Source: Subtercola boreus
Lineage (GTDB): Bacteria; Actinomycetota; Actinomycetes; Actinomycetales; Microbacteriaceae
DNA: 55,177 bases
Direction of reading: 5' to 3'
Assembly (NCBI RefSeq): GCF_003399635.1
Contig: NZ_NBXB01000019.1
Coordinates: 1 to 55,177, forward strand
This document shows, piece after piece, positions 28,755-51,203 of this stretch; position 1 is the stretch's first letter, and the number at the start of each line of letters is the position of its first letter. A model generated the notes under the pieces. It was given only the letters and a program-made list of their open reading frames with translations. It ran no database searches and was not told the origin of the DNA. Both the position numbers and the translations under genes were made by a program.

Positions 28755-28759
28755 CCGCA

Positions 28760-29686: not shown

Positions 29687-29695
29687 AGTCGGAAC

Positions 29696-30565: not shown

Positions 30566-30632
30566 CGCGCGCGATCTGACGCGCGGCTCGCTCACGCTCC
30601 TCGAGCGCGCCCGCGTGCGCTCGTGCCGAATG

Positions 30633-30698
30633 GCGATCGAGAGGACGCTAAGTGCACCAATCCGCGTCCATGGGAGCACTTGGCGTCCTCTCGAGCGC
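30633..30698 (+). repeat. long inverted repeat after the F420 oxidoreductase
   Basis: The core arms TCGAGAGGACGCTAAGTGC (30637-30655) and its partner (30676-30694) pair over 19 positions with one G-T wobble. Pairing continues outward (30633-30635 with 30696-30698) and inward (CC with GG), leaving an 8-nt apical loop CCGCGTCC. It starts 68 bases after the stop codon. Confidence 0.85.
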
Positions 30699-30710
30699 GG
30701 ATGCGGCGCG

Positions 30711-30756
30711 TGGCGAGCGCGCGCGGCGGGTGGCGAGCGCGCGCGGCGGGTGGCGA
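30711..30756 (+). repeat. 20-bp tandem repeat, 2.3 copies
   Basis: The unit TGGCGAGCGCGCGCGGCGGG occurs at 30711-30730 and 30731-30750, with a six-base partial copy after it. A related degenerate copy (GCGGCGCG) precedes it. Confidence 0.85.
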
Positions 30757-30910
30757 CGGAGGGCTGCGCCAGAGGGAGGTGACTGCCGCAGGGAGAGGGG
30801 GCTACGGCGGAGATAGGGCGAACGGCGGATGCCCGAGGGGGGTCTTAGCGGCGAGCGTGAGGGCATCGATCCGAGAGGCGCCCGAACGGCGCCGACGAAA
30901 GAAGCCGCAC

Positions 30911-35236: not shown

Positions 35237-35240
35237 GCCG

Positions 35241-35798
35241 GTGACCGACAGCACCGCTCCCGGCTCGGACCAGCCCGACGGGATCTCCGCGGTCGACGTG
35301 CTGGCCGACGCCTTCACACGCGTGCTCGGTTCGGTGCACGGAGTGCTCCGCGGCGTCACGCCGACCGATCTCGCCGCTCGCATCGACCCGGGGGCCAACA
35401 CGATCGCGTGGATCGTCTGGCACATCGGCCGGGGGCAGGATGCCCAGGTCGCCGCCCTCGCCGGCACCGAGGAGGTCTACACCAGCGCCGGGTGGCACGA
35501 GAGGTTCGGGCTGCCCTTCCCCGCCTCCGCGAGTGGCTACGGGCAGAGCGCCTCCGACGTCGCAGCGCTCGACACCGTCACCGCAGACCTTCTCACCGGC
35601 TACGTCGAGGCGGTTCACGCCCGAACGCTCGAGGTCCTGGCCGGGCTCACGCCGGGCGAGCTGTCCCGCATTGTCGACGACTCGTTCGACCCGCCCGTCA
35701 CCCTCGCCGCGCGGCTCGTCAGCGTGGTGAACGACGGCACGCAACACGTCGGGCAGGCCTCGCTCGTGAAGGGGTTCGCGAGGCGCGCCCGGTCCTGA
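35241..35798 (+). CDS. DinB-like (DUF664-type) four-helix metalloprotein
   Basis: The 185-residue protein has histidines at DinB-type metal-binding positions: IVWHIGRGQDAQ, AGWHERFG and GTQHVGQAS. Such proteins include thiol-dependent S-transferases, mycothiol- or bacillithiol-dependent enzymes and proteins of unknown role. The GTG start lies 4 bases after the VOC gene, with GGGAG in that gene's last codons as a likely ribosome site. A detoxification role with the neighbouring VOC protein is inference only. Confidence 0.85.
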   Translation: MTDSTAPGSDQPDGISAVDVLADAFTRVLGSVHGVLRGVTPTDLAARIDPGANTIAWIVWHIGRGQDAQVAALAGTEEVYTSAGWHERFGLPFPASASGYGQSASDVAALDTVTADLLTGYVEAVHARTLEVLAGLTPGELSRIVDDSFDPPVTLAARLVSVVNDGTQHVGQASLVKGFARRARS

Positions 35799-35929
35799 CG
35801 ATCATCCACACGCCGTCCCCTCGCTGAGCGGGCGATCATCCGTTTCCCACCCGGCGTTCAGCCAATCGGGCAGGTTTCGCACTCCGAATGCGTTGGGCAG
35901 AAGGTAGGCAACACGTTGAAGGGAACACA

Positions 35930-36760
35930 ATGAAGGTCTGGTTCATCACGGGAACGTCAAGGGGCTTCGGCCACGAATGGGCTGAGGCTGCCCTCAAGCG
36001 CGGTGACAAGGTCGCGGCGACAGCGCGCAACACCGACTCGCTCAAGGATCTCGTCGAGAAGTACGGCGACAACATCCTGCCGATCTCGCTCGACGTCACC
36101 GACCGTGCGGCAGGTTTCGCCGCCGTCGCAGCGGCGCATGAGAAGTTCGGCCGGCTCGACGTCGTCATCAACAACGCAGGGTACGGTCACTTCGGATTCG
36201 TCGAGGAGATCACCGAAGACGAAGCTCGCGCACAGCTCGAGACAAACGTCTTCGGGGCGCTCTGGATCACGCAAGCGGCGCTGCCGTTCCTCCGCGCGCA
36301 GAAGAGCGGCCACATCATCCAGGTCTCGTCCATTGGCGGCATCTCCGCGTTCCCGCTGGTCGGCATCTACCACGCCTCCAAGTGGGCGCTCGAGGGCTTC
36401 AGCCAGTCGCTCGCACAGGAGGTCGCCGATTTCGGCATCAAGGTCACCCTGATCGAGCCTGGCGGGTTCTCCACCGACTGGGCCGGATCGTCGTCATCGA
36501 CTTCCGCCCCTCTCGCCGACTACGCCGAACTCCACACGAAGGTCGCGGAGGCGCGCACGTCCCGTAACGCAACGCCCGGTGACCCGGAGGCCTCGGCCGC
36601 AGCGATCCTGAAGGTCGTGGATGCCGACGAGCCGCCTCTTCGCGTCTTCTTCGGCAGCGGCCCGCTCGGCATCGCGAAAGCCGACTACGCCTCGCGGATC
36701 GAGACGTGGGAGAAGTGGAACGACGTCTCCGTGCTGGCGCAGGGCGGCTCGGACTCCTAG
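35930..36760 (+). CDS. short-chain dehydrogenase/reductase
   Basis: The 276-residue classical SDR has a TGTSRGFG cofactor loop at residues 8-15 and the NNAGYG motif. The catalytic serine lies in QVSSIGG and the YxxxK motif in YHASKWALEGF. The Arg/Lys-free glycine loop followed by basic residues suggests NADP(H). GAAGGGA at 35918-35924 precedes ATG 35930. It appears monocistronic, with an imperfect hairpin after the stop. The substrate cannot be inferred. Confidence 0.93.
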   Translation: MKVWFITGTSRGFGHEWAEAALKRGDKVAATARNTDSLKDLVEKYGDNILPISLDVTDRAAGFAAVAAAHEKFGRLDVVINNAGYGHFGFVEEITEDEARAQLETNVFGALWITQAALPFLRAQKSGHIIQVSSIGGISAFPLVGIYHASKWALEGFSQSLAQEVADFGIKVTLIEPGGFSTDWAGSSSSTSAPLADYAELHTKVAEARTSRNATPGDPEASAAAILKVVDADEPPLRVFFGSGPLGIAKADYASRIETWEKWNDVSVLAQGGSDS

Positions 36761-36770
36761 CCTGCCAACA

Positions 36771-36827
36771 CCACTGGCGGCCCGCCCGCGCCTCCACCTT
36801 CAGTGGGGCGGGGCGGGTGGCCAGCGG
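36771..36827 (+). repeat. imperfect GC-rich inverted repeat after the SDR gene
   Basis: CCACTGGCGGCCCGCCC pairs imperfectly with GGGCGGGTGGCCAGCGG across a ~12-nt loop. It lies 11 bases after the SDR stop and ends just before the next leaderless promoter. It is similar in size to the other long hairpins but has more mismatches. Confidence 0.5.
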
Positions 36828-36848
36828 ATGTTCGGCTAGCCTTTCGAC

Positions 36849-37349
36849 ATGGCGACACCCGACTTCGTGCTGGACCTCCGCAAGGCCGTCGGCCATGCCC
36901 CGCTCTGGCTGATCGGCACCACGGCCGTTCTGACCCGCGAGACGGAGGCGGGGCCGGAGCTCCTGCTCGTCAGGCGGAGCGACAACGGCGCGTGGACGCC
37001 CGTCACCGGAATCATCGACCCGCGCGAGGAGCCCGCCGACGCAGCGGCCCGCGAGACTCTCGAGGAGGCCGGCATCGTCGCCGTGGCCGAACGGCTCGCC
37101 TGGGTGCACACCATTCCTCGCGTCACCTACCCGAACGGCGACTAGGCCGACTACCTCGATTTCACGTTCCGTATGCGGTACCTCTCGGGCGAGCCGCACC
37201 CGGCCGATGAAGAGAACACGGATGCCCGTTGGTTCAGCGTGGACGCACTCCCGCCGATCTCCGCGAATATTCGGATGCGGATCGACCATGCGCTCGCCGA
37301 TGACGTCGCGACGGAGTTCGTCCGCGCGGTGGCCCGCCCCACGCCCTGA
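36849..37349 (+). pseudogene. Nudix hydrolase interrupted by an in-frame amber codon
   Basis: The frame opens MATPDFVLDLRKAVGHAP and carries a Nudix box (TGIIDPREEPADAAARETLEEAG). At 37143-37145 a TAG follows YPNGD. Reading through it, ADYLDFTFRMRYLSGEP and DARWFSVDALPP continue the fold for 67 more codons to TGA at 37347-37349, with no other damage. Related proteins read NGDQADYLD, so a single C-to-T change (CAG to TAG) explains the stop. The start has a leaderless -10 TAGCCT at 36837-36842, so transcription may continue. The truncated product would lack the last strands and is probably inactive. Confidence 0.88.
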
Positions 37350-37484
37350 CCCGGTCGATCTGACGCGGGCGACGCGGGGGACGCGCACAACCTGACCTGG
37401 GCGACCCCCGCCGGTTCGGCAACCGTTCACCGAACCCTCACCCGCGACATCCCGTGCCGCGGCCACAGAAGCGGCCGGGCTGCC

Positions 37485-37490
37485 TAGCAT
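37485..37490 (+). promoter_or_regulatory. -10 box upstream of a small convergent gene
   Basis: TAGCAT, followed 9-17 bases later by AGGAAGG (37501-37507), forms a plausible promoter plus ribosome site for the short frame at 37517. Confidence 0.45.
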
Positions 37491-37516
37491 CGGAGGCACA
37501 AGGAAGGATGCCCCCC

Positions 37517-37729
37517 ATGCCCGATCGCCCGCTCCCGATTCCTGACCAGCTCCTCCGTGCGCTCTGGCGTGTTGTCGAGCTGTCCGTCTTCATGGTGCTG
37601 ATCGTCAAGGATCGCCGTGTCCCCACCTGGAACAACCCCGCCGTCACCACCGGTCAGACTGTTCCGAACCACTCCGTCAGGGCCTCGACCACGCCCGCGC
37701 TGCTGCCGCAGCCCACCCAGGCCACGTAA
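37517..37729 (+). CDS. possible small membrane protein, overlaps the monooxygenase 3' end
   Basis: Seventy residues begin MPDRPLPIPDQLLRALWRVV, then ELSVFMVLIVKDRR forms a short hydrophobic segment. A -10 box and ribosome site precede it. Its last 25 codons run antisense over the end of the convergent monooxygenase gene, where the sequence looks non-native. The true protein may have been cut short. I do not recognise it. Confidence 0.4.
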   Translation: MPDRPLPIPDQLLRALWRVVELSVFMVLIVKDRRVPTWNNPAVTTGQTVPNHSVRASTTPALLPQPTQAT

Positions 37730-39183
37730 CCGTCGGGGCGCACCAGTACCGCCGTCGGCGGCTCGACGGCACCCAGCTCGGGGAGCTCCCAGCCGCCGCT
37801 GGCCCGAGCCCACACCAGACGCACCCGCTCCCGCCACGGGCCGGACGACTCCACTGAACCGCCGTCGAAGTCGATCAGCAGGGGCCGAGCTTCGTGCAGG
37901 AGGGTGAAGACTCGCACGCTAGACCCATCGGCCAGGAGCAGGTCGAGATCGGGCATCCGGCGCCCAAGAAGTGGATGATCGACACCCTCGGCCTCGCCCG
38001 ACCTGTAGTGCACCCCGAGGCCTGACAGACGCGCGCCGAACCGTCTGCGCCCGGCCTCGGTCGACAGCAGATCGGCCACAGACGCTGCCACCGCCTTCGA
38101 GCGGGCATCCGTCCGGCGGAGCGCCACCTGCGCCAGAGTGTCCTGCAGCACCGCGGCTCCGACCGGGTGACGCTCGCTCTGATACGTGTCGAACAGCGAC
38201 TCGGGCGACACGCCCGACACCACCTGCGCGAGCTTCCAGCCGAGGTTCATCGCGTCCTGCACGCCTATGTTGAGCCCTTGCCCGCCTGCGGGGTAGTGCA
38301 CATGGGCTGCGTCGCCGGCGAGCAGGATGCGCCCCGAGCGATACGTCGTGGCCTGGCGCGCGGCATCCGTGAAGCGCGAGATCCAGGTAGCGGAGCGTGC
38401 GCCAAAGTCGGTGCCCCACACCTCGCGCATCGCCGCGCGCACCTCGTCGAGGGTGGGCTCGCCGCCCTGGCGCAGCTCACTCTCGGTGACGACGACGCGG
38501 ATGGTCGACCGTCCCGGCTCGACGGGGCCGATTCCGTGCGTGCCGCGCTCGCCCTGCACCATGCCCCATGCCGGTTCGTCGGTGTATTCGACTTCGGCGA
38601 CGATGTTGCTGACCGTGGCATCCCACCCCTCGAACCCGATGCCCGCGCCCTTACGCACCAGACTCTGCCCTCCGTCGCAGCCGACGAGGTACTCGGCGCG
38701 CAGGCGCGAACCGTCGGCGAGATGCACGGTGACGCGCGGGTCGGCGTTCGGGGCGGCCTCGCTGGCCGCCGCCCCCTCCGCCTCCGCCCGCCCTGCGACC
38801 GCTTCGACCCCGATCACCTCGCTGCCATACCGGATCGTCACGCCGAGCTGGGCGAGCCACCCCGCGAGGATCGCCTCGACGCGGTTCTGCCAGAGCCCGA
38901 GGCCGTACGGATACCGCGTCGGAAAGTCGCTGATATCGAGAACGGTGCCGCCGAACAGCTGCGTCTGGGCGGGAGAGCCCTCGGCGATCATCCGGTCGGC
39001 GATGCCGCGTTGGTCGAACATCTCGATCGTGCGCGACTGCAGGCCACCCGCGCGCGATCCCTTCAGCATATGGTCGGGCCGGCGTTCGAGTAACGCCACG
39101 GGGATGCCCGCGAGCGCCAACTCGGCCGCGAGTACCATCCCGACCGGCCCCGCGCCGACAATCGCAACTGCACACTCTTCCAT
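37654..39183 (-). CDS. FAD-dependent aromatic monooxygenase (rifampicin-monooxygenase-like)
   Basis: The 509-residue group A flavoprotein monooxygenase has VAIVGAGPVGMVLAAELA at the N-terminus for FAD. The middle motif is YLVGCDGGQSLVRK. The second FAD motif ILLAGDAAHVHYPAGGQGLN and GVQDAMNLGWKLA follow, and the C-terminus is thioredoxin-like. The overall pattern, including SRAGGLQSRTIEMFDQRG, resembles rifampicin monooxygenases and polyketide hydroxylases. It would use NAD(P)H and O2 to hydroxylate an aromatic compound. GGAG lies before the ATG at 39183. Whether it inactivates an antibiotic is not shown by sequence. Confidence 0.92.
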   Translation of the reverse strand: MEECAVAIVGAGPVGMVLAAELALAGIPVALLERRPDHMLKGSRAGGLQSRTIEMFDQRGIADRMIAEGSPAQTQLFGGTVLDISDFPTRYPYGLGLWQNRVEAILAGWLAQLGVTIRYGSEVIGVEAVAGRAEAEGAAASEAAPNADPRVTVHLADGSRLRAEYLVGCDGGQSLVRKGAGIGFEGWDATVSNIVAEVEYTDEPAWGMVQGERGTHGIGPVEPGRSTIRVVVTESELRQGGEPTLDEVRAAMREVWGTDFGARSATWISRFTDAARQATTYRSGRILLAGDAAHVHYPAGGQGLNIGVQDAMNLGWKLAQVVSGVSPESLFDTYQSERHPVGAAVLQDTLAQVALRRTDARSKAVAASVADLLSTEAGRRRFGARLSGLGVHYRSGEAEGVDHPLLGRRMPDLDLLLADGSSVRVFTLLHEARPLLIDFDGGSVESSGPWRERVRLVWARASGGWELPELGAVEPPTAVLVRPDGYVAWVGCGSSAGVVEALTEWFGTV

Positions 39184-39237
39184 CGGAGGCTCCTGTTCCG
39201 GGGCCGGAACCGGCCCTCGGGGCAGTCTGCCGCAGCA

Positions 39238-39262
39238 GTGGGGTCTTGCGGCAAGCCCCCAC
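39238..39262 (-). terminator. short hairpin, possible transcription end
   Basis: Eleven-base arms (GTGGGGTCTTG with CAAGCCCCCAC, one mismatch) have a 3-nt loop. It lies 90 bases after the stop of the minus-strand gene ending at 39352. No U-run follows. Confidence 0.4.
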
Positions 39263-39351
39263 CCGGGCGATAATTTGGGTACGGCAGGGAGATGCTCTCC
39301 CTGCTTCTTCTCGTTGGGGGAACGGCACCTGACACATCCGAGCGTGGTAGC

Positions 39352-40011
39352 TCAGGCCCGGTCAGGCCCGAGGATCTGCTCTGCAACGCTGCTCGGCTCC
39401 GCACCGGCGATCCGCCCCGCCGCGAGCTGGCCGCGCACCTCGTGTTTGAGCGCCGCGAGCTCGTCGACGTCGAGGGTGCCAGCGTCGACCGCGGCGAGAG
39501 CCGCTTGCAGCCCTTGGTGCTGCTCGAAAGCACTCTTCGTGCCAGTCATCGCCGCGACCAGGACCTCGAGACTCCCGAGCTCCGGACGCCTCTGGATGAT
39601 CGCCAGCGCAGTGACACGCTTGCCCTCGTCGCGCGAGGTCGTCAACTTCCTCACGTCATCCCGCCGCAGCGCCGGCCTCTTGGCGAGCCGATGACCGCGG
39701 TCCACACTGGTCTGCAGGGCCGACGTTCTCCCGTTCCCGGTCGGCGCCCCCGCCCCGCCGCGTTCGGCCCCGGCGTGCCCCGCCCCGCCGAGCGCGGCCC
39801 CGGTGCTCACGGCCTGCGAAGCGGGCGATTCGGCTGCGGCGGTGAGACGGAGGGCCTCGTCCCGCAGACGCCGTGCCAGCACGACGTCGCCCGCCCCTTC
39901 AGCGACATCCGCCCCGATCAACCGTCGCCTGACCTCGCCGAGCGTCACTTCTGCCTGCGACAGCCGCGCAGCCGTGTCGTCCCGTCGTTGATCGTCTCTC
40001 CACTTGCGCAC
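39352..40011 (-). CDS. hypothetical helical protein
   Basis: The 219-residue protein starts MRKWRDDQRRDDTAARLSQ. An N-terminal helical part (RRLIGADVAEGAGDVVLARRL) joins through a Gly/Ala-rich link (residues ~70-95) to a second helical part (LGSLEVLVAAMTGTKSAFEQ). It has no membrane segment and no known domain. The GTG start is supported by -10 TAGCCT on the minus strand (40018-40023) with exactly six spacer bases, the leaderless pattern used by many neighbours. Confidence 0.7.
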   Translation of the reverse strand: MRKWRDDQRRDDTAARLSQAEVTLGEVRRRLIGADVAEGAGDVVLARRLRDEALRLTAAAESPASQAVSTGAALGGAGHAGAERGGAGAPTGNGRTSALQTSVDRGHRLAKRPALRRDDVRKLTTSRDEGKRVTALAIIQRRPELGSLEVLVAAMTGTKSAFEQHQGLQAALAAVDAGTLDVDELAALKHEVRGQLAAGRIAGAEPSSVAEQILGPDRA

Positions 40012-40167
40012 CTGCTCAGGCTATCCGCCGGCAACCGCCGAGCACCGCCACTCTTCCCGTTCCCCGCTCGCGGTCGATGCTCATCGGCTCGGGAGTTCCG
40101 GTCTGTGATACGGCTGCGGAGCGACGAAAACTCCCGTGTCGATCCGCCGCGGCCGGCCGGAGGCGGG

Positions 40168-40216
40168 GCGGGTGGCAGGGCGGATGACGGCTGGGCGGCC
40201 GCGGGTGGCAGGGCGG
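40168..40216 (+). repeat. 16-bp direct repeat in spacer
   Basis: GCGGGTGGCAGGGCGG occurs at 40168-40183 and again at 40201-40216 in the G-rich spacer just after the epimerase stop. Nothing else is visible in this 212-base gap. Confidence 0.7.
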
Positions 40217-40223
40217 GTGGGCG

Positions 40224-41183
40224 TCAGGCGAGGCCGAGGGCGCGGAGCGACTCCGCGGTCTCGACGATCGTCTCCTCGGCCGGGCGGGGGCGGAAGCCGA
40301 GCTCCCGCTTCGCGCGGTCGTTGTGGATGACCAGCGGCGCCGGCTCGTCACCCGGCACCTCTTCGGTCGGCACCCGCGACGCGAACGCGCCGAGCCGTTC
40401 GCGCAGAACGTTCGCCACATCGAGGAACGTGCGCGTCGGCCCATCCGCGAGGGCGAGGTAGCGCCTGCCGGCCGCGCCCGGCGTGTTCATCGCCGCGATG
40501 TGGAGGGTGGCGACATCCCGTACGTCCGCGATGCCGAAGCGCTGCCGCGGCACCCGCGCGAGAGCCCCGCTGAGCATCCCGGTGAAGAACTGCAGCGATG
40601 AGCGCGCGTCGACGGTCAGCGTGGGTCCGGCGATCCACGTCGGGTTGACGACGACCAGGGAGGTGTCGCCGCCTTCCCGCTCAACGAAGTCCCAGGCGGC
40701 CCGTTCGGCGACCGTCTTCGACAGGGGGTACGGCGCGAGGCCGGGCGTGGACGGGTCGGTCCAGTCGTCTTCGTCGTAGTCGCGCACGGGTTTCGGCGAG
40801 TATCCGATCGCAGCGAACGATGACGTCAGCACGACCCGGCGCGCACCGGCGTCGCGTGCGGCACGCAGCATCCGCAACGCCCCGTCGCGCGCCGGAATGA
40901 CCACCTCGTCGGGAACCGTCGCCAGCACCATTGGCGACGCCAGGTGGTAGACGTCGGCGATACCGCGGGCGGCGGATGCCCAACCCTCGTCGTCGGTGAG
41001 GCTGGCATACACGATCTCGAGCCCGGCGTCATCGGCTCCAGCCCGAGCGAGCGCCGCCCGCAGCCCCGCTTCGCTCCCGGGGGTGCGGATCGTCGTCCGT
41101 ACCTCGGTGCCCCCCAGCAGCAGATCGGCGATGAGGCGCGTCGCGAGGTACCCGGAGCCGCCGGTCACCAGCACGCGGCTCAT
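40224..41183 (-). CDS. NAD(P)-dependent epimerase/reductase, dihydroflavonol-reductase-like
   Basis: The 319-residue extended SDR begins MSRVLVTGGSGYLATRLIADLL (Rossmann loop). Its catalytic YPLSK motif is preceded by VLTSSFAAIGY, and VVNPTWIAGPTL follows. It resembles aldehyde or dihydroflavonol reductases of the extended SDR group, which reduce a carbonyl with NADPH. The start overlaps the stop of the MerR gene by 4 bases (ATGA), so the regulator and this enzyme form one operon and the enzyme's substrate may be the regulator's inducer. Confidence 0.92.
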   Translation of the reverse strand: MSRVLVTGGSGYLATRLIADLLLGGTEVRTTIRTPGSEAGLRAALARAGADDAGLEIVYASLTDDEGWASAARGIADVYHLASPMVLATVPDEVVIPARDGALRMLRAARDAGARRVVLTSSFAAIGYSPKPVRDYDEDDWTDPSTPGLAPYPLSKTVAERAAWDFVEREGGDTSLVVVNPTWIAGPTLTVDARSSLQFFTGMLSGALARVPRQRFGIADVRDVATLHIAAMNTPGAAGRRYLALADGPTRTFLDVANVLRERLGAFASRVPTEEVPGDEPAPLVIHNDRAKRELGFRPRPAEETIVETAESLRALGLA

Positions 41184-41620
41184 GCGAACACCGCTTCGAG
41201 CTCGCCGAGCATGGCGTTCACCCGCGCGGATGCCGCAGCCTCGGCCTCCGCGTCACCCCGGTCACGGGCATCCCAGAGCCCCGCCTTCGCTTCGAGGTAG
41301 CGGAGGTGCACGTTCAGCGTCGCGATCTCGCGCTCGATGCGAACGGCGTGCCGGTTCAGGATGTCGCGCTGCTCGCCCGCGGCCTCACGGCCCTTGGCGC
41401 GGTTCGCCTGGTACGTGCGCATGTCCTCGATGCCGACGCCCATCGCGCGGAGGCAGGCGAGTACTTGCAGGTCGTCGAGATCGCGCTCGCGGTAGCGGCG
41501 GTGACCGCTCCGCTCGTCGCGGGCGATCGGGCCGATCAGCCCGACCTCTTCGTAGTAGCGGAGCGTCGGTTCGCTGAGCCTGCTGCGCTGCGCTGCATTC
41601 TGGATGGTCACAAGTGTCAT
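41180..41620 (-). CDS. MerR-family transcriptional regulator
   Basis: The 146-residue regulator has the MerR DNA-binding domain TIQNAAQRSRLSEPTLRYYE, then VGLIGPIARDERSGHRRY and an antiparallel coiled coil. The C-terminal sensor part is short and has no Cys cluster, so a small organic inducer is likelier than a metal. The promoter directly upstream has the typical MerR layout: -35 TTGACC, a 19-bp spacer with a dyad, and -10 TCTGAT lying six bases before ATG 41620. Autoregulation of the two-gene operon is therefore likely. Confidence 0.94.
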   Translation of the reverse strand: MTLVTIQNAAQRSRLSEPTLRYYEEVGLIGPIARDERSGHRRYRERDLDDLQVLACLRAMGVGIEDMRTYQANRAKGREAAGEQRDILNRHAVRIEREIATLNVHLRYLEAKAGLWDARDRGDAEAEAAASARVNAMLGELEAVFA

Positions 41621-41626
41621 GCTGCA

Positions 41627-41657
41627 ATCAGAACAGACTTCAAGCGCTTGAGGTCAA
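41627..41657 (-). promoter_or_regulatory. MerR-type operator-promoter (19-bp spacer, SoxR-like dyad)
   Basis: On the minus strand TTGACC (41657-41652) and TCTGAT (41632-41627) are 19 bp apart, the long spacer that MerR proteins need. The spacer region holds the dyad ACCTCAAGC-GCTTGAAGT (41654-41637), with one mismatch between halves. The half-site ACCTCAAG is the one known from SoxR operators. Confidence 0.8.
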
Positions 41658-41721
41658 GCGTGTCGCTACAGGGCTCTGCATGGGCATGCCCGCCCGTGCC
41701 GAGGCTGTCGGGCGGCCGAGA

Positions 41722-41949
41722 TCAGGGATGCTCGCCGTTGGCGGCCTCCTCGATCCAGTCCGTCGCGCGGTCGGAGAGGAAGAACCCGTTCGGCCCGCTC
41801 TCCCCGACCCACCACGCGTCCGAGGTGACGACCCCACCGGCGGCGGTGATCTGCTCCACCAGGTGCGACGGCAGGGCATCGCCGTTGTTCGCCATCAGCC
41901 ATGCACGCGCATCCTCGGCCAGCTTCGGCCACCATTCTGCAATGTCCAT
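41722..41949 (-). CDS. small hypothetical protein
   Basis: The 75-residue protein begins MDIAEWWPKLAEDARAWLM and includes WWVGESGPNGFFLSDRATDW. It is rich in Trp and acidic residues, with no membrane segment. AAGG lies 9 bases before the ATG. Function unknown. Confidence 0.7.
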   Translation of the reverse strand: MDIAEWWPKLAEDARAWLMANNGDALPSHLVEQITAAGGVVTSDAWWVGESGPNGFFLSDRATDWIEEAANGEHP

Positions 41950-42096
41950 GCGCGTAGCCTTGCACGTGCACGCCGACTTCGGTCGGGTCGTGGATGATTC
42001 GCCCCCCGTTGCCCGACAATGGACTCATGAGCGAGCCGCGCCACCGCATCTTCAGCGCCAGTTTCGCGAGCCTCGATCCTACGTGCCTGATCCCCG

Positions 42097-42447
42097 TCAG
42101 CTGCGCGCTGCCAGAACGCAGAACTCGTTGCCCTCGGGGTCGGCCAAAACCACCCACGGCGTATCGCCCTGCCCGATGTCGACGCGCTGGGCACCCATCG
42201 ACAGCAGCCGCTCGACCTCCGCCGCTTGGTCATCCGGCACGAAGTCGAAGTGCAGCCGATTCTTGCCCCGTCTCTCGTCGGGCGAATTCAGGAACAGCAG
42301 TGTCGGCTTCGACCCGTCAGGGTTCTGAAGTTCCAGCTCCCCTTCGCTCTCGTCGATCACGTTCCATCCCAGGGCGGCCTCCCACCAGTGGCCGAGTGTG
42401 CGGAAGTCGTGGCAGTCCACGACGATCTCTTCGAACTTCAGCGTCAT
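42097..42447 (-). CDS. VOC-family (glyoxalase-like) protein
   Basis: The 116-residue single-module VOC protein has the typical VVDCHDFRTLGHWWEAALGW opening, NRLHFDFVPDD and VLADPEGNEFCVL. These supply metal ligands (His, Glu) in related dioxygenases and glyoxalases. ATG 42447 has -10 TAGCGT six bases upstream (42459-42454), a leaderless arrangement. The role is unknown; resistance or detoxification are common in this fold. Confidence 0.9.
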   Translation of the reverse strand: MTLKFEEIVVDCHDFRTLGHWWEAALGWNVIDESEGELELQNPDGSKPTLLFLNSPDERRGKNRLHFDFVPDDQAAEVERLLSMGAQRVDIGQGDTPWVVLADPEGNEFCVLAARS

Positions 42448-42704
42448 GCGTCCACGCTATCCGGCGCGAACGACTTCGGCGAGAGCGCGTGCTACCCGCC
42501 GCAGTCACCCCGCGTGGAGACCACTGCTACAGATTCGCGGAACTCGTCCTCCCTGAGGAGGGCTTTGTGCTCATGATCGCCGGCCACCCGGACATCTTCG
42601 AGAAACGGTACGCGCTCAGGCTTCCGAAGGTCGCCTGACCGTCAAGCGGCGACGACGAGGCCTACCGTCCGAACGCCTCCCTGGCTATCGAGAACGTGAC
42701 AACC

Positions 42705-43238
42705 TCAGTCCCAGTCGAGGTAGTCCTCGATCGCCCAGGCGGTCTCCCCGGCCCGCGTCTCCGGGAACCGGTGACCCCCGCCTTCGATGTCGACGACGCT
42801 CACCAGTCCCGGAGCTGAATCGCGCAGGGCCGTCCCGTTGGACGGGGGAGTGGCGTCGTCGTCGCTCGCCTGCACGACGAGCACGGGAATGCCCTCAGCC
42901 AGCGCCGGCGCCCCCTCAGTCACACCCAGCAGCAGCACGCCGTTCACGCGATCGTGGTTCTCGATGGCGACGGTACGGGCGACGGCTCCGCCGCTGCCGT
43001 GGCCACCGATCCACGCATGTTCGATATCGAGACTGTCGAGCACGTCGACGACATCCTGTGCCGTGTCGGTCTCGATGCGCACCACGCGAAAGTCTGCTGC
43101 GGAGACCAGGTGGGAGATCGTTCCCAGGCCATCGAGGTCGGATCCCTGGTCGGCCACGAGCACGAGTGCGGGGCCCGCCCCTTCAACCGCAAATGCGAAG
43201 GATCGCTCGCCCGACGTGAATATCTGTTTCTCGCTCAT
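42705..43238 (-). CDS. alpha/beta-hydrolase-fold protein
   Basis: The 177-residue protein has the nucleophile elbow GGHGSGGAVAR, with Ser in GHGSG. IPVLVVQASDDDATPP may hold the acid, and GGGHRFPE the catalytic His. It lacks most of a lid domain and is shorter than usual esterases (~250). ATG 43238 has -10 TATATT (43251-43246) with a 7-base spacer, so a leaderless transcript is likely. An upstream TTG at 43247 is disfavoured for that reason. The substrate is unknown. Confidence 0.85.
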   Translation of the reverse strand: MSEKQIFTSGERSFAFAVEGAGPALVLVADQGSDLDGLGTISHLVSAADFRVVRIETDTAQDVVDVLDSLDIEHAWIGGHGSGGAVARTVAIENHDRVNGVLLLGVTEGAPALAEGIPVLVVQASDDDATPPSNGTALRDSAPGLVSVVDIEGGGHRFPETRAGETAWAIEDYLDWD

Positions 43239-43324
43239 TACTCCCAATATACGAGAGCACGCCGCCCGCTGCGCTCACCGATGCCCCTTGCCCTTCCGAC
43301 AGCGGAAGTGGGCTCGTCTCCTGC

Positions 43325-43716: not shown

Positions 43717-44895
43717 TCAGCGCAGCCATTCCCGGGAAGCCGTCACCAGTGCAGCGACCCCGCGATCGAGCGTCGGCTGCGGCTCGGGTGCGAAATGCGG
43801 CGAGTGGTTCGACGGAATGTCGCGGTCGAGAGTGCCGGCGCTCGCAGCGGCGAGGTACTGCTGGGTGTTGGCGCCGCCGAGGATCCAGTAGACCAGCGGG
43901 ACTTCCGCGGCGGTTGCCAGCAGGCCCACGTCTTCGCTCCCCGAGACCTGGCCGGGGTCGAGAACAGCCTCGTCACTGAACGCCGCGCGAAAGGCGCCCA
44001 TCGTTCGTTCGGTCGCGGCACGTTCGTTGACGGTGACCGGAAACGACTCCGCGAACTCGAGCGTCGGCTCAGGCGCCCCAGCTGCCGCGGCCTCGGCCCG
44101 CGCGATGCGCTCGATCGAGTCCAGGATGCGCAGCCGCACCTGCTCGCTGTATGCCCGCATGCTCAGCCCGAGCGTCGCGCTCTCGGGAATGATGTTGTTC
44201 TTCGACCCCGCGTGAATCTGCCCCACCGTCACCACCGCGACATCCTGCGGCGCGATCTCGCGAGCCACGATCGTCTGCAGCCTTCCGACGATTGCCGCAG
44301 CGATCACGATTGGATCGATCGTCGTCTCGGGCCGCGAACCGTGCCCGCCTCGCCCGTGCACCGTGATGTCGAGGCTGTCGGCCGACGCGAACGCCGCGCC
44401 AGGGTGAGCGCCGAGCATCCCGGCCGGCGCGGGCCCGACATGCTGGCCGAGCACCACATCCGGGGTCGGAACCTTCTCGTACAACCCGTCGTCGAGCATC
44501 GCTCGCGCGCCGTGGCCCACCTCTTCCGCGGGCTGGAACACGGCCACCGCGGTTCCGTTCCACTCGGCTCTCGTCGCGGACAGCTCACGCACCGCGCCGA
44601 TCAGGCAGGCGACGTGTACGTCGTGCCCGCAGGCGTGCATGACACCGGGTGTGGCGCTCGCGTAGCCGAGCCCGGTCTGCTCCGCCACCGGTAGCGCATC
44701 CATGTCGGCTCGCAGCAGCACCGTCGGCCCGTCGCCGTTCCGCAGAACCCCGGCCACTCCGGTCATCCCGACGCCCTCGACGACGTCGAACCCTGCCGCC
44801 CGCAATTCGGCTGCGGCAATCGCGGCCGTGCACGTCTCTTCGAATGAGAGCTCCGGATGCTCGTGCAGCTGCCGGTACAGCTCGTCGATCGTCAT
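43717..44895 (-). CDS. M20-family amidohydrolase (hippurate/IAA-amino-acid hydrolase type)
   Basis: The 392-residue metallo-hydrolase has metal-binding motifs HEHPELSFEE, MHACGHDVH, QPAEEVGHGA and a C-terminal HSPHF. The dimerisation domain carries the HGRGGHGSRPE motif. Family members split N-acyl amino acids such as hippurate or N-acetyl-aminopimelate derivatives. The start is preceded by a purine-rich AAGGAG and by CAAGAT six bases before the ATG. It lies immediately after the truncated jetB fragment, so its promoter region is the point where the Wadjet locus breaks off. Confidence 0.93.
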   Translation of the reverse strand: MTIDELYRQLHEHPELSFEETCTAAIAAAELRAAGFDVVEGVGMTGVAGVLRNGDGPTVLLRADMDALPVAEQTGLGYASATPGVMHACGHDVHVACLIGAVRELSATRAEWNGTAVAVFQPAEEVGHGARAMLDDGLYEKVPTPDVVLGQHVGPAPAGMLGAHPGAAFASADSLDITVHGRGGHGSRPETTIDPIVIAAAIVGRLQTIVAREIAPQDVAVVTVGQIHAGSKNNIIPESATLGLSMRAYSEQVRLRILDSIERIARAEAAAAGAPEPTLEFAESFPVTVNERAATERTMGAFRAAFSDEAVLDPGQVSGSEDVGLLATAAEVPLVYWILGGANTQQYLAAASAGTLDRDIPSNHSPHFAPEPQPTLDRGVAALVTASREWLR

Positions 44896-44978
44896 GCCCT
44901 CATCTTGCTCCTTCCCGGCTCACGGTGGGGGGGAAAATCCGGATGATCTTCACCCGTCTCACCCGATCATGGCTAGAT

Positions 44979-45179
44979 TCATCGCATGAGCTCGAGGAAC
45001 AGATCGTTCAGCCGGGAACGGATGCTGCGCTCGTCAGCCACGAGCGCAGACCACAGCCCGGGCTGCTGACGCCCCGTGAGATAGGGGCCCTTCAGAATCT
45101 CGAGCAGCGCCCGCCGGGACGGTTCGAGCAGAGTGCCCGCGTCACCGTCCCAGAGTCCGCGCTGTGGTTCGTCGGTCAT
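44979..45179 (-). pseudogene. jetB: 5' fragment of jetB (DUF4194), truncated Wadjet subunit
   Basis: Sixty-six residues start MTDEPQRGLWDGDAGTL and continue LEPSRRALLEILKGPYL and LWSALVADERSIRSRLNDLF before ending at LELMR-stop. This matches the first third of DUF4194 (JetB, kleisin-partner subunit of the SMC-like Wadjet complex), which normally goes on for over 100 more residues. The break comes right after LEL. Downstream DNA is the M20 amidohydrolase promoter, and jetC (SMC-like ATPase) and jetD (toprim nuclease) are absent. The ATGA overlap with jetA is still intact. It cannot form a working complex. Confidence 0.85.
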
Positions 45180-46633
45180 CCGGCAACCTCTCCTGTGAAC
45201 AGATGCAGCTCGATTTCGGCACGGCGCTCGACCCCGTCGAGGCCGTGCCAGACAACCTCTTCCACGGCACCGGCGCGCCGTTCTCCCTGCTGCGTGGCGA
45301 GCGACAGAAGACCGATGACGCTCGCGACACCCTGGCTGGCGGGGTGCCGCACAAGCAGGGCGCCGACGCTCACCGGCCCCATCGCGGCGAGCGTCTCGTT
45401 GACGTTCGCCGCGAGCTCGGTGAAGTCGATCTCGCTCTCCCGTGCCACGGCCGCGAGAGCTGCGAAGTCGACGACCCCGGGCACATCGTCGGCGAGCTCT
45501 GCACCGGTGTCGAAGTCGGAAGGGTCGAACGGGCTGAGTTCGCCCACACTGCTGAAACGCATCGCCGACAGCTCGAGTTCGCCACCGATCTCGGCGTACG
45601 GCTTCACCCGCTTGCTTGCCGCAACAGCCGCAGCAAGGGCCTCCTGCAGTATTCCTCTCAGAGCGCGATCGCGTTGGAACTCCTGCGAATGCACGTACCG
45701 CCGCAGGCCCCTGGCGAACTCGGTGAGGATGCCCTGCACCTCGCGACTGCCGTCCTTCATCTCCCGGATGAGCCCCCGGAGCCCGCGCCGCGCCTCCACC
45801 GACAGCTCGCCGGCGAACTCTCGCCCCAGAATCGCCGACACGTCAGCTTCGAACGCCGCCGAGCGCTCGGGGTCGCGGATGAGCGCGGAGAAGGCCGAGA
45901 AAGTGCGCCCTTCGTCTGACGATTCGATGAGGTCGACGCCCCGGAAAACATCGTCGAGCACCGCGCCCTGCGACTCGTCGGTGTTCAGGATGCTCTCCCG
46001 CAGCTCGCGGTTGATCTCGCCGAACAGCGCTCGCACTCTGGCGAAGTCGGCGGGCAGCGCTTGGGCCTGCAGAAGCACATCGGTGACCCGTTCGGTGGCT
46101 CGCCGGGTGTCGAGCACGGTGAAGTCGCCTCCCCGGATTCGTTCGATCTCCTCGTCGATCCGCCGCTTCTCCCGTTCCAGCGCGTCGAGGCGACGGGTCG
46201 AGTCGGGGTCGGTGTCGATCGCGAGCTGCTGCAGGGTTGCCGCGAGGCTCACGAGGCGTGACTCGGTCACCGTGCTGCGAGGCGCCTGCAACTGATTGAG
46301 GAGCCGAATCGCGTCGAACCCCGCCGCAGAGAGTTCGTAGGTCTCACCCCGCGCGTCTGTGGCAGGGCGCCGGATCAGGATGCCCGCGTTCCGCCACTCG
46401 TCGCAGTACGCCTTCGCGCGCCGGTTCGACAGATCGAAGTGATCCCTCAGCTCTTCCAGGTCGGCGTCGATCAGCTCGTGAAGATCATCCGCCGGTACGC
46501 GTGTGCCCGGCTGCCCCAGGCGCTCGGCCACCACCGCTGCGATCACGGCCACATTGTCTTTCCGGAGCATCTGCAGCGCCGGGTTCTCATCGATCAGCCT
46601 CTTGTAGGAGAGAGCGGCTGCGAGTGCGGGCAT
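45176..46633 (-). CDS. jetA: JetA, DUF3375 kleisin of a degraded Wadjet system
   Basis: The 485-residue protein matches DUF3375 along its length: LIDENPALQMLRKDNVAVIA, a winged-helix-like part (FDLSNRRAKAYCDEWRNAGI), a long helical centre with LDALEREKRRIDEEIERIRGG, and VLDDVFRGVDLIESSDEGRTF. In Wadjet (JetABCD) it is the kleisin of an SMC-like complex that extrudes and cleaves closed circular plasmids. The frame is complete. jetB is cut to 66 codons and jetC and jetD are missing, so this is an orphan. CAAGAT at 46640-46645 lies six bases before the ATG. Confidence 0.92.
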   Translation of the reverse strand: MPALAAALSYKRLIDENPALQMLRKDNVAVIAAVVAERLGQPGTRVPADDLHELIDADLEELRDHFDLSNRRAKAYCDEWRNAGILIRRPATDARGETYELSAAGFDAIRLLNQLQAPRSTVTESRLVSLAATLQQLAIDTDPDSTRRLDALEREKRRIDEEIERIRGGDFTVLDTRRATERVTDVLLQAQALPADFARVRALFGEINRELRESILNTDESQGAVLDDVFRGVDLIESSDEGRTFSAFSALIRDPERSAAFEADVSAILGREFAGELSVEARRGLRGLIREMKDGSREVQGILTEFARGLRRYVHSQEFQRDRALRGILQEALAAAVAASKRVKPYAEIGGELELSAMRFSSVGELSPFDPSDFDTGAELADDVPGVVDFAALAAVARESEIDFTELAANVNETLAAMGPVSVGALLVRHPASQGVASVIGLLSLATQQGERRAGAVEEVVWHGLDGVERRAEIELHLFTGEVAG

Positions 46634-46656
46634 GGATCCATCTTGGCGTGGTTCTC

Positions 46657-46968
46657 ATGGCTCCCGCTAAACTGATGATAAATCATTGGGCGGCCCTCCT
46701 CGAGCGCACGGTGAACCCGGGGGCGAGCAGTGAATCGGCATCCATCGCGCCGGGCGACGACCTGTCGAGTGGGCCGACGCTGATATTCTATCGGGTGCTC
46801 GAGGCGAAGACGGTGGAGAACCGCATCCACTTCGACCTCGTGACGACCGCGTTCGATGCGGAGCTTGCGCGGGTGGTCGGGTTGGGTGCGACCGTGCGCG
46901 CTTCGTTCGAGTCGTGGACGACGCTTGCCGACCCCGAGGGCAACGAGTTCGACCTCATCCGGGGCTGA
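46657..46968 (+). pseudogene. 5'-truncated VOC-family gene
   Basis: The frame reads HWAALLERTVNPGASSESAS, then IHFDLVTTAFDAELARVVGLG and TTLADPEGNEFDL, the body and end of a VOC/glyoxalase-like protein. The first beta strand, normally with the DCxDP metal site before FWAALLG (~20 residues), is missing. Residues before it (MAPAKLMIN) are unrelated. The break lies only 24-45 bases from the divergent jetA start, so the Wadjet locus boundary seems to have removed it. A 103-residue product from ATG 46657 is possible but would lack a metal ligand. Confidence 0.72.
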
Positions 46969-47019: not shown

Positions 47020-47613
47020 ATGGCCAGATCGTCAGTGACTCCCGAAACGAAGAAGCCGTCGGCGCGCGACCGCCTGCTGGCGGCATCCGATGAGCTCTTT
47101 TACAACGAAGGCATCCACACGGTCGGTATCGACCGGGTCATCGAGAAGGCGGGCGTTGCGAAGGGCTCCCTCTATTGCATCTTCGGGGGCAAAGACCAGC
47201 TGATCGAGACGTACCTCTTCAACCGTCACCAGGCGTGGATGGAGGTCGTGCAGCGGGGAATGGATGCGGCCGACGATCCGCGGGCGAAGATCCTGGCCGT
47301 GTTCGACGAGCTCGGCACGCTGTTCGCCGCGCCCGACTTTCGGGGGTGTGCGTTCGTGAACGCCACCGCGGAGGCGCTGCCCGGTAGCCCGGAGGATCTG
47401 GCGGCGGGGAAGTTCCGGGGGTGGATCCACGAGCTGTTCTTTTCGCTGGCTGTGGCGGCGGGTGCTGTCTCGCCTCGCGTGCTCGCCGACCAGCTGGTGG
47501 TGCTCTACGACGGGGCGAACACTACGGCGCAGATGGATAAGACGGCGGCGCCGGCGGTGGTTGCGAAAGGGATGGTGCGGATGGTGCTCGACTCGAGTTC
47601 GTACGTCTCGTAG
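47020..47613 (+). CDS. TetR-family transcriptional regulator
   Basis: The 197-residue regulator has the N-terminal helix-turn-helix RLLAASDELFYNEGIHTVGI, then DRVIEKAGVAKGSLYCIFGGK. A ligand-binding domain follows (GCAFVNATAEALPGSPEDL). The sequence resembles the group that controls efflux or short-chain dehydrogenase genes. No neighbour in the same direction is an obvious target, so autoregulation through the dyad upstream, or control of the divergent jetA/VOC region, remain open. Confidence 0.93.
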   Translation: MARSSVTPETKKPSARDRLLAASDELFYNEGIHTVGIDRVIEKAGVAKGSLYCIFGGKDQLIETYLFNRHQAWMEVVQRGMDAADDPRAKILAVFDELGTLFAAPDFRGCAFVNATAEALPGSPEDLAAGKFRGWIHELFFSLAVAAGAVSPRVLADQLVVLYDGANTTAQMDKTAAPAVVAKGMVRMVLDSSSYVS

Positions 47614-47756
47614 CAGAGAACGCGCTGGTGAAGGCGTTGGCGGGTCGGGGCTTGGCCTGCGGATTGCTATCGATGGAGGGCAGGAGCGTCGGTGGAGTCG
47701 TCTACCATGACCGGGTTTTCCGGCTATTTTGGACGAGTCCACCGTAGAATTGGTCC

Positions 47757-48176
47757 ATGTCGGTTTCAGAGCTCCGGGCCCCCAGGGGGCTACTGACACC
47801 CACGCGCTCGGCCGATCTCATCCGGAACGAACTCGAGGCGGGCAACACGGATGTTGCCATTCGCGTCATGACGGAAATGGCCGGCCGCTTGCAGTTGGCC
47901 TCAGACGACGGCCTCTCCGAACTCCAATTATCGCCTCCGACTACAGGCCGACCGGAGTGGGACACATTTCTTGCGACCGTAGTCATGTGGGATTCTCACA
48001 AACGCGGTCTGGATGCGCCCTCGTGGACAGACCGTCCGCCCCTGGTGTCGGAATGGTTCGTCGGATACGAACAGTCCACTGAGGCGGGTTGGCGCGAGGT
48101 TGTGCGTTCGGAGACTCCGGCAGAGTTTCTCGGGCGCGGAATTTTGATCCGCGAGAAGAGCCTCGGCATCCGGTGA
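47757..48176 (+). CDS. first gene of a nucleotidyltransferase toxin-antitoxin-like pair
   Basis: The 139-residue protein starts MSVSELRAPRGLLTPTRSAD and continues NELEAGNTDVAIRVMTEMAG, a helical part. A C-terminal part has WDTFLATVVMWDSHKRGL and WFVGYEQSTEAGWREVVR. It overlaps the nucleotidyltransferase gene by GTGA, so the two are coupled. ATG 47757 has -10 TAGAAT (47745-47750) and six spacer bases. Antitoxin identity is inferred from position only. Confidence 0.75.
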   Translation: MSVSELRAPRGLLTPTRSADLIRNELEAGNTDVAIRVMTEMAGRLQLASDDGLSELQLSPPTTGRPEWDTFLATVVMWDSHKRGLDAPSWTDRPPLVSEWFVGYEQSTEAGWREVVRSETPAEFLGRGILIREKSLGIR

Positions 48177-48745
48177 TCGACGACCAGGTTCTCTTCTCGA
48201 GGGACGATCTGATGGAGCTGCTCACCGAGCTGGGGCGGAGATTGGACGCTCGGGGCGTGACCGCCGAGGCATACATCATCGGGGGAACCGCCATGGCGAT
48301 CGGGCTGGGTTCCTCCCGCCGGACAGGAGACGTCGACGGCTGGTTCAAGCCTATGAAGGAAGTCCTAGAGGAGGCGCACACTATGGCCGTCGAACGTGGC
48401 CTAGCGACCGACTGGCTGAACACGCACGCCTCTGGCTTCATGTCGTTCTCGCCCAAAGACGACGTCGGCGCGCAATCGATCACTCTCAGAGGAATGCGGA
48501 TCCGGTTGGCCTCGCCTCGGTTTCTTCTTGCGATGAAGCTGGCTGCTGGCCGCGCCAAAGACGCGGCCGATATCTCGAAGCTGATCAATGAGCTGGGGAT
48601 CAGCGATGCAGACGAACTGGTCGATCTTGCATTTGATGTCTTGGGTGAAGACGGCGTGACGCTCACTGACTCGCGCGAGTCCCTCACCTTCCAGGCTCGG
48701 GATGCGATTGCCGCCGCAGCCCGAGAGCGCAGCCGAGACGCCTGA
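48173..48745 (+). CDS. DUF6036-type nucleotidyltransferase, probable toxin
   Basis: The 190-residue protein has the nucleotidyltransferase core AYIIGGTAMAIGLGSSRRTG followed by DVDGWF (GG...DxD catalytic pattern). SPRFLLAMKLAAGRAKDAAD and ISKLINELGI then resemble MenT/AbiEii-type tails. Such enzymes can modify tRNA or nucleotides and act as toxins with a co-encoded partner. The GTG overlaps the previous stop (GTGA). Whether this is a toxin or an ordinary enzyme cannot be settled from sequence. Confidence 0.82.
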   Translation: MIDDQVLFSRDDLMELLTELGRRLDARGVTAEAYIIGGTAMAIGLGSSRRTGDVDGWFKPMKEVLEEAHTMAVERGLATDWLNTHASGFMSFSPKDDVGAQSITLRGMRIRLASPRFLLAMKLAAGRAKDAADISKLINELGISDADELVDLAFDVLGEDGVTLTDSRESLTFQARDAIAAAARERSRDA

Positions 48746-48815
48746 ACGCCCTACCCCGACGCGTTCCCCGCGAACAGCCTGAGCTTTCAGACGAGCCGAT
48801 GCTCATAATGAAGAG

Positions 48816-50045
48816 GTGTTCACCCCCACCCGCTTGGCCGCACTCGAAGCCCTCACCGATTTCGTTCCCCGCGCGGGGTCGCAGTATGCGCGCGCCCGGA
48901 ACGTCGATATGGGGCCCGGTCGCGACAATGTCTCGTCGCTCTCGCCCTATATTCGGCACCGGCTTCTGACCGAGCGCGAGGTCGTTGCCGCCGTGCTCGA
49001 GCAGCACCGGCTCTCGTCGTGCGAGAAGTTCGTGCAGGAGGTGATGTGGCGCACCTACTGGAAGGGCTGGCTCGAGCAGAATCCCGAGGTGTGGATGCGC
49101 TACCGCCGTGATGTCGACGAACTCGTGCAATCCGGCGAGACCGAGAGCGCTGCATATCGTGATGCCGTCACCGGGCACAGCGGAATCGACGCGATGGATG
49201 CCTGGGCCCTCGAACTCGTCGGGACCGGCTACCTGCACAACCACACGCGCATGTGGTTCGCGAGCATCTGGATCTTCACGCTGGGCCTGCCGTGGCAGCT
49301 GGGCGCCGACTTCTTCTACCGACATCTGCTCGACGGGGATGCCGCATCGAACACGCTGTCATGGCGATGGGTGGCCGGGCTTCAGACAGTCGGTAAGACG
49401 TATCTCGCGTCGCAGTCGAACATCTCCCGGTACACCGATGGCCGGTTCTCGCCGGAGGGGCTGGCTACGACCGCACGAGCTCTGGTTGAGGATCCGCTGC
49501 CGGCGCGCTCGGCTCTCGCGCCGCCGGAAGCGAGTCCCAGCGGGCGACGGCGGGGGTTGATTCTGCACGAGGAAGACCTGGATTGGCCGAGTCTGCTGGC
49601 TGAGCATCCGTTGGCCGGTACAAGCGGCCAGGGGCCGGTGCCCGTGCCTGTGGCCTTTGCCGGTTTCGCCCGAGCCGACGACCGGTCGCCGCTGGGTGCG
49701 TCAGAGGTCGTGCGCGAGTTCACCCGGTCGGCTCTCGTCGACGGGGTGGGGCGAGCCCAGCCTCCGGTGCCGCGCGAGCAGCCACGCGTTCTGGCCGACA
49801 CGTTCGCTTCGACGGTTCTCGAGTGGGCGGCTTCAGAGAAGGTGGATTCGATCGTGATGCCGTTCGCTCCGGTCGGGCCGGTGCGTGAGCGGATCGACTC
49901 TCTTCGGGCGGTCGTCGCTTCGGAGGGGCTCATGCTGACGATGCTGCAGCGGCGGTGGGACACTCTGGCGTGGCCGCACGCGTCACGCGGGTTCTTTCCT
50001 TTTCGGGAACAGATTCCGAAGTTGCTGGCGCAACAGGGTCTCTGA
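48816..50045 (+). CDS. photolyase/cryptochrome-related FAD-binding protein, permuted order
   Basis: The 409-residue protein starts at once with a helical FAD-binding photolyase domain: FVPRAGSQYARARNVDMGPG, SLSPYIRHRLL, CEKFVQEVMWRTYWKGWLEQ, HNHTRMWFASIWIF and LDGDAASNTLSWRWVAGLQ. Classical photolyases have an alpha/beta antenna domain before this; here a Rossmann-like domain (LPAR...VLEWAASEKVDSIVMPFAPVGP) comes after it, residues ~235-409. CATAAT at 48804-48809 plus six bases precedes the GTG, so it is probably leaderless. DNA repair or light sensing is possible; the substrate is unknown. Confidence 0.85.
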   Translation: MFTPTRLAALEALTDFVPRAGSQYARARNVDMGPGRDNVSSLSPYIRHRLLTEREVVAAVLEQHRLSSCEKFVQEVMWRTYWKGWLEQNPEVWMRYRRDVDELVQSGETESAAYRDAVTGHSGIDAMDAWALELVGTGYLHNHTRMWFASIWIFTLGLPWQLGADFFYRHLLDGDAASNTLSWRWVAGLQTVGKTYLASQSNISRYTDGRFSPEGLATTARALVEDPLPARSALAPPEASPSGRRRGLILHEEDLDWPSLLAEHPLAGTSGQGPVPVPVAFAGFARADDRSPLGASEVVREFTRSALVDGVGRAQPPVPREQPRVLADTFASTVLEWAASEKVDSIVMPFAPVGPVRERIDSLRAVVASEGLMLTMLQRRWDTLAWPHASRGFFPFREQIPKLLAQQGL

Positions 50046-50220
50046 CGACCGTCAGGCGTGCGCCGTCGTCGGGGCGCCAAGTGTCGTAGCGGCGGGGGTG
50101 ACTTTGACGACGCCTACCCGGCAGTCCTGGCGGTCAGCTGTGGTGGGTGTGGGTGGCGTCGCTCGAAGACGGTCCCGAGGGAGCCTCAGGTAATGCCGGC
50201 CAGCGGACTAGAATCGGCTC

Positions 50221-50559: not shown

Positions 50560-51203
50560 GCGATGATCTCCAGCTGCAATGGGATCTCACCCAGCTAGCG
50601 CTGACCGCACTGCGAGATCATGCGTTTGCGCTGGCCGGTTCCGGTGCGATCAGGGAGCACGGCTTCACCAATCGGCACACGCAGGATGTCGACCTTTTCA
50701 CGAACGACCCCGATCCCGAATCGTTCGATGACGCAGTCGACGGGTTGACGTTGGAACTGGAGCTCGTCGGCCTGAATGTGGAAAGTGTGCGTCGGGCACC
50801 CCGGTTTTCGCAACTGCGCGTCACCACCGCGACCGGTCACTCCGTCGACATGGATCTCGCCGTCGATTGGCGTCAGCGCGATCCTGTCGCTCTCGCCGTC
50901 GGGCCGGTGCTGAGTCTTGAGGACGCGGTCGGCAACAAGGTGAGCGCCCTGTACTCGCGGGCCGAGGCGCGCGACTACCTCGACGTCGATGCGATTCGCT
51001 CCAGCGGGCGGTTCACTGATGCTCAGCTTCTCTCAGCCGTCGCGGAGCGGGACGCGGGCTTTGACGTGATGATGTTCGCGAGCCAGCTGGAACTGGTGAC
51101 GCACATCCGTCCAGAACGAGTCGAGAGGTATGGCGTCAGCGCCGAACAGCTTGACGCAATCAGGAAGCGCTTCGTTCGTTGGGCCGCGGAGATCCGCTCG
51201 TAG
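50556..51203 (+). CDS. AbiEii/MenT-like nucleotidyltransferase, probable toxin
   Basis: The 215-residue protein has the AbiEii-type core FALAGSGAIREHGFTNRHTQ followed by DVDLFT, where GS...DVD forms the catalytic site. VLSLEDAVGNKVSALYSRAE and ARDYLDVDAIRSSGRF then give the family's R-D-xxD tail. AbiEii and MenT enzymes transfer nucleotides to tRNA ends or other acceptors and block growth. The partner gene overlaps by four bases. Function as toxin is family inference. Confidence 0.88.
   Translation: MSDDLQLQWDLTQLALTALRDHAFALAGSGAIREHGFTNRHTQDVDLFTNDPDPESFDDAVDGLTLELELVGLNVESVRRAPRFSQLRVTTATGHSVDMDLAVDWRQRDPVALAVGPVLSLEDAVGNKVSALYSRAEARDYLDVDAIRSSGRFTDAQLLSAVAERDAGFDVMMFASQLELVTHIRPERVERYGVSAEQLDAIRKRFVRWAAEIRS

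Follow-up and report, generated by a model that had tools for sequence, protein, structure and literature searches.

A truncated type I Wadjet locus in Subtercola boreus, probably a remnant left after two deletions had trimmed a defence island

Introduction

When a defence operon is reduced to one complete gene, the survivor may be a passive left-over or may have been kept for a role of its own. This question is raised by a jet locus of Subtercola boreus, in which a complete jetA is followed by only the beginning of jetB. In B. subtilis, plasmids are restricted only if all four Jet subunits are present, of which JetA is the kleisin, JetB the KITE and JetC the SMC subunit (PMC10586767). The locus was analysed within a stretch of 55,177 nucleotides (the window), which is the entire contig C19 of a draft genome of 97 contigs with a listed completeness of 99.97%. 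The truncation of jetB is therefore internal and not the effect of a contig end.

Results

Genes retained and genes missing

The jetA gene (45176..46633, minus strand) was found to be intact, with 0 stops and 0 frameshifts in its reading frame. Its product of 485 amino acids matched DUF3375 in Pfam (E=1.5e-131, 440 bits, profile 1-469/474) and scored 602.6 bits as JetA1 in PADLOC, and it thus represents the kleisin of a type I Wadjet. It was the single JetA at E<=0.01 in the 97 contigs. The neighbouring jetB stub (44979..45179, minus strand) was delimited by its open reading frame, by PADLOC and by alignment with G003, a sister genome whose operon is intact. Its frame of 66 amino acids consists of about 65 jetB codons, one junction codon and a stop; residue 65 is the last jetB-like one, and the 66th residue and the stop are supplied by the junction. 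The two frames share 4 nt (ATGA), as they do in G003, and this order and overlap are those expected of a type I Wadjet operon. Since the stub is a fragment, its DUF4194 match (E=1.5e-6, profile 2-40/165) reached 28.5 bits, below the gathering score of 32.7, and its JetB1 score in PADLOC was 88.5 bits (profile 15-74 of 231).

Of the full-length JetB (DUF4194 KITE) of type I Wadjet, only this stub is present; it was the sole DUF4194 match in the 97 contigs. Neither JetD_C (PF09983, the JetD Toprim nuclease; searched at E<=1) nor the JetC SMC ATPase was found in the same genome, the top match of the G003 JetC query being E=0.147 over 57 residues. The set of kleisin, KITE and SMC without a nuclease, as in an MksBEF condensin, is also not what the locus contains, with the KITE truncated and no SMC recovered by the searches. 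Two weak tblastn matches of G003 proteins within the window were set aside. The JetD-like match at 50775-50888 (38 residues, 34% identity, E=0.008, window searched alone) was taken as chance because it falls in a stretch shared with the related genome G001 and covers one tenth of JetD, and a JetC match at 7683-8024 (E=0.043) was likewise dismissed as chance. The next gene on the jet strand encodes an M20 peptidase (43717..44895, minus strand; Pfam). Thus the complete DUF3375 frame, its ATGA coupling to jetB, the cut after 65 codons, the absence of jetC and jetD and the M20 neighbour, all of which had been proposed by a sequence-only reading of this DNA, were borne out, and searches of the window and the genome did not recover the rest of jetB, jetC or jetD in any other arrangement.

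Intact operons in relatives

An intact jetABCD operon was found in G003, which is also assigned to Subtercola boreus (locus L057, contig C15). Its jetB, jetC and jetD encode 215, 1109 and about 377 amino acids, the last with a start codon chosen by us. It resembles the window in its full-length JetA, in the ATGA overlap and in its orientation towards a shared left flank, and it differs in that the window jetB is cut at codon 65 and jetC and jetD are absent. The two JetA proteins are 97.5% identical over 485 codons. JetA was present in 3 of the 12 genomes of the genus, our own included; in the third (G004, JetA identity 49%) right-sized frames lie in jetABCD order, with JetD_C there. Among 36 loci examined (L057-L091 and L004), which are partly non-independent (L057 is that of G003, and the loci L062 and L066 resemble each other), jetB and the start of jetC adjoin jetA in 35, and in the lone exception, L091, jetA sits at a contig end. 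Around the jet genes, window DNA matched G003 at 44985-46687 with 91.8% identity, and the only other match to those G003 stretches was a glyoxalase-like motif of 92 bp (window 42123-42214). In G001, tblastn with JetA to JetD of G003 detected no jet remnants, the best E values (0.077, 0.17, 0.96 and 0.053) being at chance level.

Junctions on both sides

Alignment with G001 and G003 showed that at the left junction (44979..44988) the upstream region and start codon (44986-44988) of a TMEM175 gene, named from the 32-residue start of its product in Pfam, are joined to jetB codon 65, with a few bp shared at most. The flanking DNA at 44905..44988 (plus strand) is 80% identical to the TMEM175 upstream region of G001. 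On the other side, the DNA upstream of jetA (46634..46686, minus strand) is common to G003, and at the right junction (46686..46687) jet island DNA is joined inside a Glyoxalase_6 gene with about 1 bp shared; G003 homology ends here, and homology to G001, G006 and G004 starts at 46687 (46699 in G010). The glyoxalase gene (VOC; 46687..46968, plus strand) is beheaded. It covers profile positions 16-106 of 106 in Pfam, and in the relatives just named the start codon lies 21 to 23 codons further upstream, a part which the window lacks. Since so few bases are shared at either break, end joining rather than homologous recombination is suggested for both.

Both breaks (44985 and 46687) were thus mapped against an intact operon, and the cut in jetB proved to be a true junction. 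The view of the sequence-only reading that this is a degraded Wadjet locus held, given the intact operon in the sister genome in apparently the same slot. Its further claim that exactly the DNA-cutting part had been lost did not: about 70% of jetB is gone together with jetC, jetD and neighbouring DNA, the losses exceed the operon on both sides, and the right-hand break beheads the glyoxalase gene, which that reading does not mention.

A variable island in a shared chromosomal slot

The left flank of the window (35079-43269) was matched in pieces by G003 C15:40001-46131, where the order is left flank, about 14 kb of other genes and then jetDCBA, so that the flank lies 14 kb from jetD and the jet genes are oriented towards it as in the window. 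The right flank (47292-50095) matches G003 C16:4155-6814, also in pieces. Since this flank is on C16 and the continuity of C15 and C16 is unproven, it is only likely that jetABCD of G003 occupies the same slot as the window remnant.

The corresponding slot of G001 is about 20 kb long (C1:1573651-1593892). Of seven frames given to Pfam, three had no match and four matched a reverse transcriptase, MrcB_N, HSDR_N and a Schlafen group 3 helicase. Over 1639 bp, the helicase region shares 94% identity with a G003 region 2.2 kb upstream of jetA. Pieces of G001 match both jet sides of G003 with their order kept, at 19890-20180 and then 28621-30801 (counted from C15:40001), and the interval between them is about 260 bp in G001 versus about 8.4 kb, including jetDCBA, in G003; one additional piece is out of order. 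Because the pieces flank the jet genes in the same order, the comparison of these sequences indicates that the jet genes occur in some versions of a shared island of variable content and are missing from others.

Several other genes of this region were recorded. The reverse transcriptase of G001 (L048:8658-10133, minus strand; RVT_1, 75 bits) is possibly a defence reverse transcriptase, and G003 also carries McrC and an AAA protein read as McrB-like. The M20 peptidase is missing from G001 at this place, window positions 43743 and 44905 being nearly adjacent there, and has a 79% match elsewhere in G006. At 47757-48745 (plus strand) a 139-aa frame without Pfam match is followed by an overlapping DUF6036/AbiEii-like nucleotidyltransferase, possibly a toxin-antitoxin pair; this DNA matches G003 C16 and not the G001 slot.

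Selection on jetA and age of the breaks

Between the window and G003, jetA showed a dS of 0.34 and a dN of 0.014 (dN/dS 0.042), with 12 amino-acid differences. In the same comparison, three flanking genes had dS values of 0.22, 0.45 and 0.64; this set excludes two further values, 0.42 for a 41-codon TetR piece and 0.79 for a paralogous glyoxalase match. Since the jetA value falls inside the flank range of 0.22-0.64, it is consistent with vertical inheritance. Nine plasmid records carried a similar JetA; their identity reached at most 36% (records near our own genome were possibly excluded), and they therefore gave no indication that jetA came from a plasmid recently. For the jetB stub, counts were too small to interpret the dN/dS of 0.24 over 65 codons (5 nonsynonymous and 7 synonymous changes; 0.19 over 64) or the dS of 0.15, which is below that of jetA.

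The jetA differences were assigned to branches by visual comparison with 13 outgroup JetA proteins, the closest being 68% identical in amino acids. About four were derived on our own branch (positions 2, 18, 79 and 157) and three to four on that of G003, with the remainder unassigned. If a fraction f of the branch had been neutral, about 183f nonsynonymous changes should have accumulated; with 4 to 8 observed, f is below 5 to 8% as a rough bound. The glyoxalase fragment, which has presumably been dead since the right-hand break, carries 5 nonsynonymous and 2 synonymous changes on its own branch, with 1 more ambiguous, and its ratio against G001 is 0.69, with neighbours in the same comparison at 0.13-0.26. 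Set against jetA, which has 4 or 8 changes but fivefold more sites, the fragment gave a Fisher p of 0.008 or 0.045, in a post hoc test on tiny counts. At face value this hints that jetA has been constrained after the break, but the two junctions may differ in age. As jetA has not decayed (dN/dS 0.04), either the loss would be recent or JetA would still be selected, and the small test leans weakly to selection.

JetA without JetD in the family

A JetA-like match was found in 99 of 398 family genomes and JetD_C in 48 of 398. Defined by a best match of at least 225 bits, the close clade of JetA comprises 30 genomes, of which 29 also carry JetD_C, in some cases on a different contig; our own genome is the exception. 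No recurrent lone-JetA form was seen among these 30 of the 398 genomes. G171 stands outside the 30 because only a 113-residue JetA piece is left. In this genome (contig C19, L096:4398-5996) the N-terminal piece of jetA runs into the last jetC codons beside an intact JetD (373 aa, DUF3322 and JetD_C), with jetB and most of jetC absent, and the locus is thus a reciprocal remnant. Deletions in the jet operon are therefore neither unique nor always sparing of jetA, and the surviving gene looks arbitrary, because G171 keeps jetD and our own genome keeps jetA.

Many genomes of the family carry a JetA of a remote clade (about 25% identity). Outside the close set there are 69 JetA-positive genomes (G171 included), 17 with JetD_C (weak in G153) and 52 without. 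In four of the remote loci, those of G323 (L093/L098), G346 (L094), G409 (L095) and G042 (L097), frames like jetA, jetB and jetC follow one another and no jetD-like frame adjoins them, Pfam having been run on the frames of L094 and L095 only. They probably belong to the MksBEF-type condensins known from P. aeruginosa, in which kleisin, KITE and SMC are all retained. MksBEF shares the missing JetD nuclease with the window, where the KITE is a stub and the SMC is gone. In G318 (C1:1560549-1562019) jetA appears as two overlapping matches (residues 3-169 and 167-480), consistent with a frameshift.

Discussion

In our estimate, with a probability of roughly 0.8, the locus is what two deletions have left of a type I Wadjet operon in a defence island that is shrinking, and Wadjet defence has been lost. 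An ancestral operon would have stood in the variable defence island of this Subtercola lineage, which two deletions of the end-joining type, in whichever order, would then have trimmed from either side. One would have run from the TMEM175 start codon to jetB codon 65, removing jetD, jetC and most of jetB, and the other would have begun some 53 bp upstream of jetA and ended within the glyoxalase gene. What is left would be a complete kleisin and a useless KITE stub; because JetB, JetC and JetD are absent, there would be neither a loop-extruding motor nor a nuclease, and plasmid defence would be gone. A comparable loss is known from Clostridium cellulovorans, for which spontaneous loss of jetABCD within a deletion of about 23 kb is reported (PMC12287153). 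There, too, the Wadjet locus went as part of a larger deletion, but jetABCD was lost, whereas jetA and the jetB stub remain in the window.

Several points speak against the two-deletion reading. The jetA gene has not decayed; two deletions flanking a perfectly kept gene are less parsimonious than one event, which could suggest selection on jetA; the glyoxalase pseudogene looks older than the clean record of jetA suggests; in G003 the left flank lies 14 kb from jetD and the right flank is on another contig; and the assembly is a draft. A single event is what would be expected if a jetA-jetB fragment from another place had been taken up and joined into the gap between the TMEM175 and glyoxalase genes, and the little or no homology at both junctions would fit this as well. 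However, the jet operon of G003 shares its contig and orientation with the common left flank, and the dS of jetA matches that of the flanks, which makes capture highly improbable. An assembly artefact joining unrelated pieces, conceivable in a draft of 97 contigs, is hardly credible, for the two junctions are separated by 1.7 kb in the interior of a contig of 55 kb, both flanks match relatives in order, in pieces, and no jetC or jetD was found on any other contig.

The partners may instead have been lost while JetA alone stayed useful, for example by acting on another SMC complex or on an incoming Wadjet, either as adaptor or as competitor. The intact frame, the dN/dS of 0.042 with no excess of change on its own branch, and a glyoxalase fragment changing faster than jetA agree with this, as does the MksF kleisin of C. 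glutamicum, which binds MksE, MksB and MksG (PMC10123090). However, the low dN/dS may mostly date from the time of the whole operon, and a recent loss would look the same; 29 of 30 close-clade genomes have JetD_C, with no recurring lone-JetA form; and a consensus scan of 44850-46900, weak for actinobacteria, found 0 promoters near jetA (0.1 in shuffles). Terminators numbered 0 in the same stretch (0.5 in shuffles). A role of its own for JetA is thus unlikely in our judgement, and its more specific form, a lone Wadjet kleisin selected in trans, for example by poisoning or modulating the SMC complexes of rivals or the host condensin, is more doubtful still, if slightly less so than capture. A shallow search of the literature found no report of a lone JetA. 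From the sequence comparisons, jetA is most likely a recent left-over of the two-deletion history, with a retained function possible.

The locus looks like ordinary defence-island decay, and its value lies in how cleanly the shrinkage can be mapped, both breaks being readable to a few bases against the operon of a sister genome. It also calls for caution, as a defence system that is dead would be scored as present here if JetA were the only query. If jetA proves to be under selection, its product would be unusual among SMC kleisins in having an independent existence; for the strain itself, plasmid restriction by Wadjet has most likely been lost.
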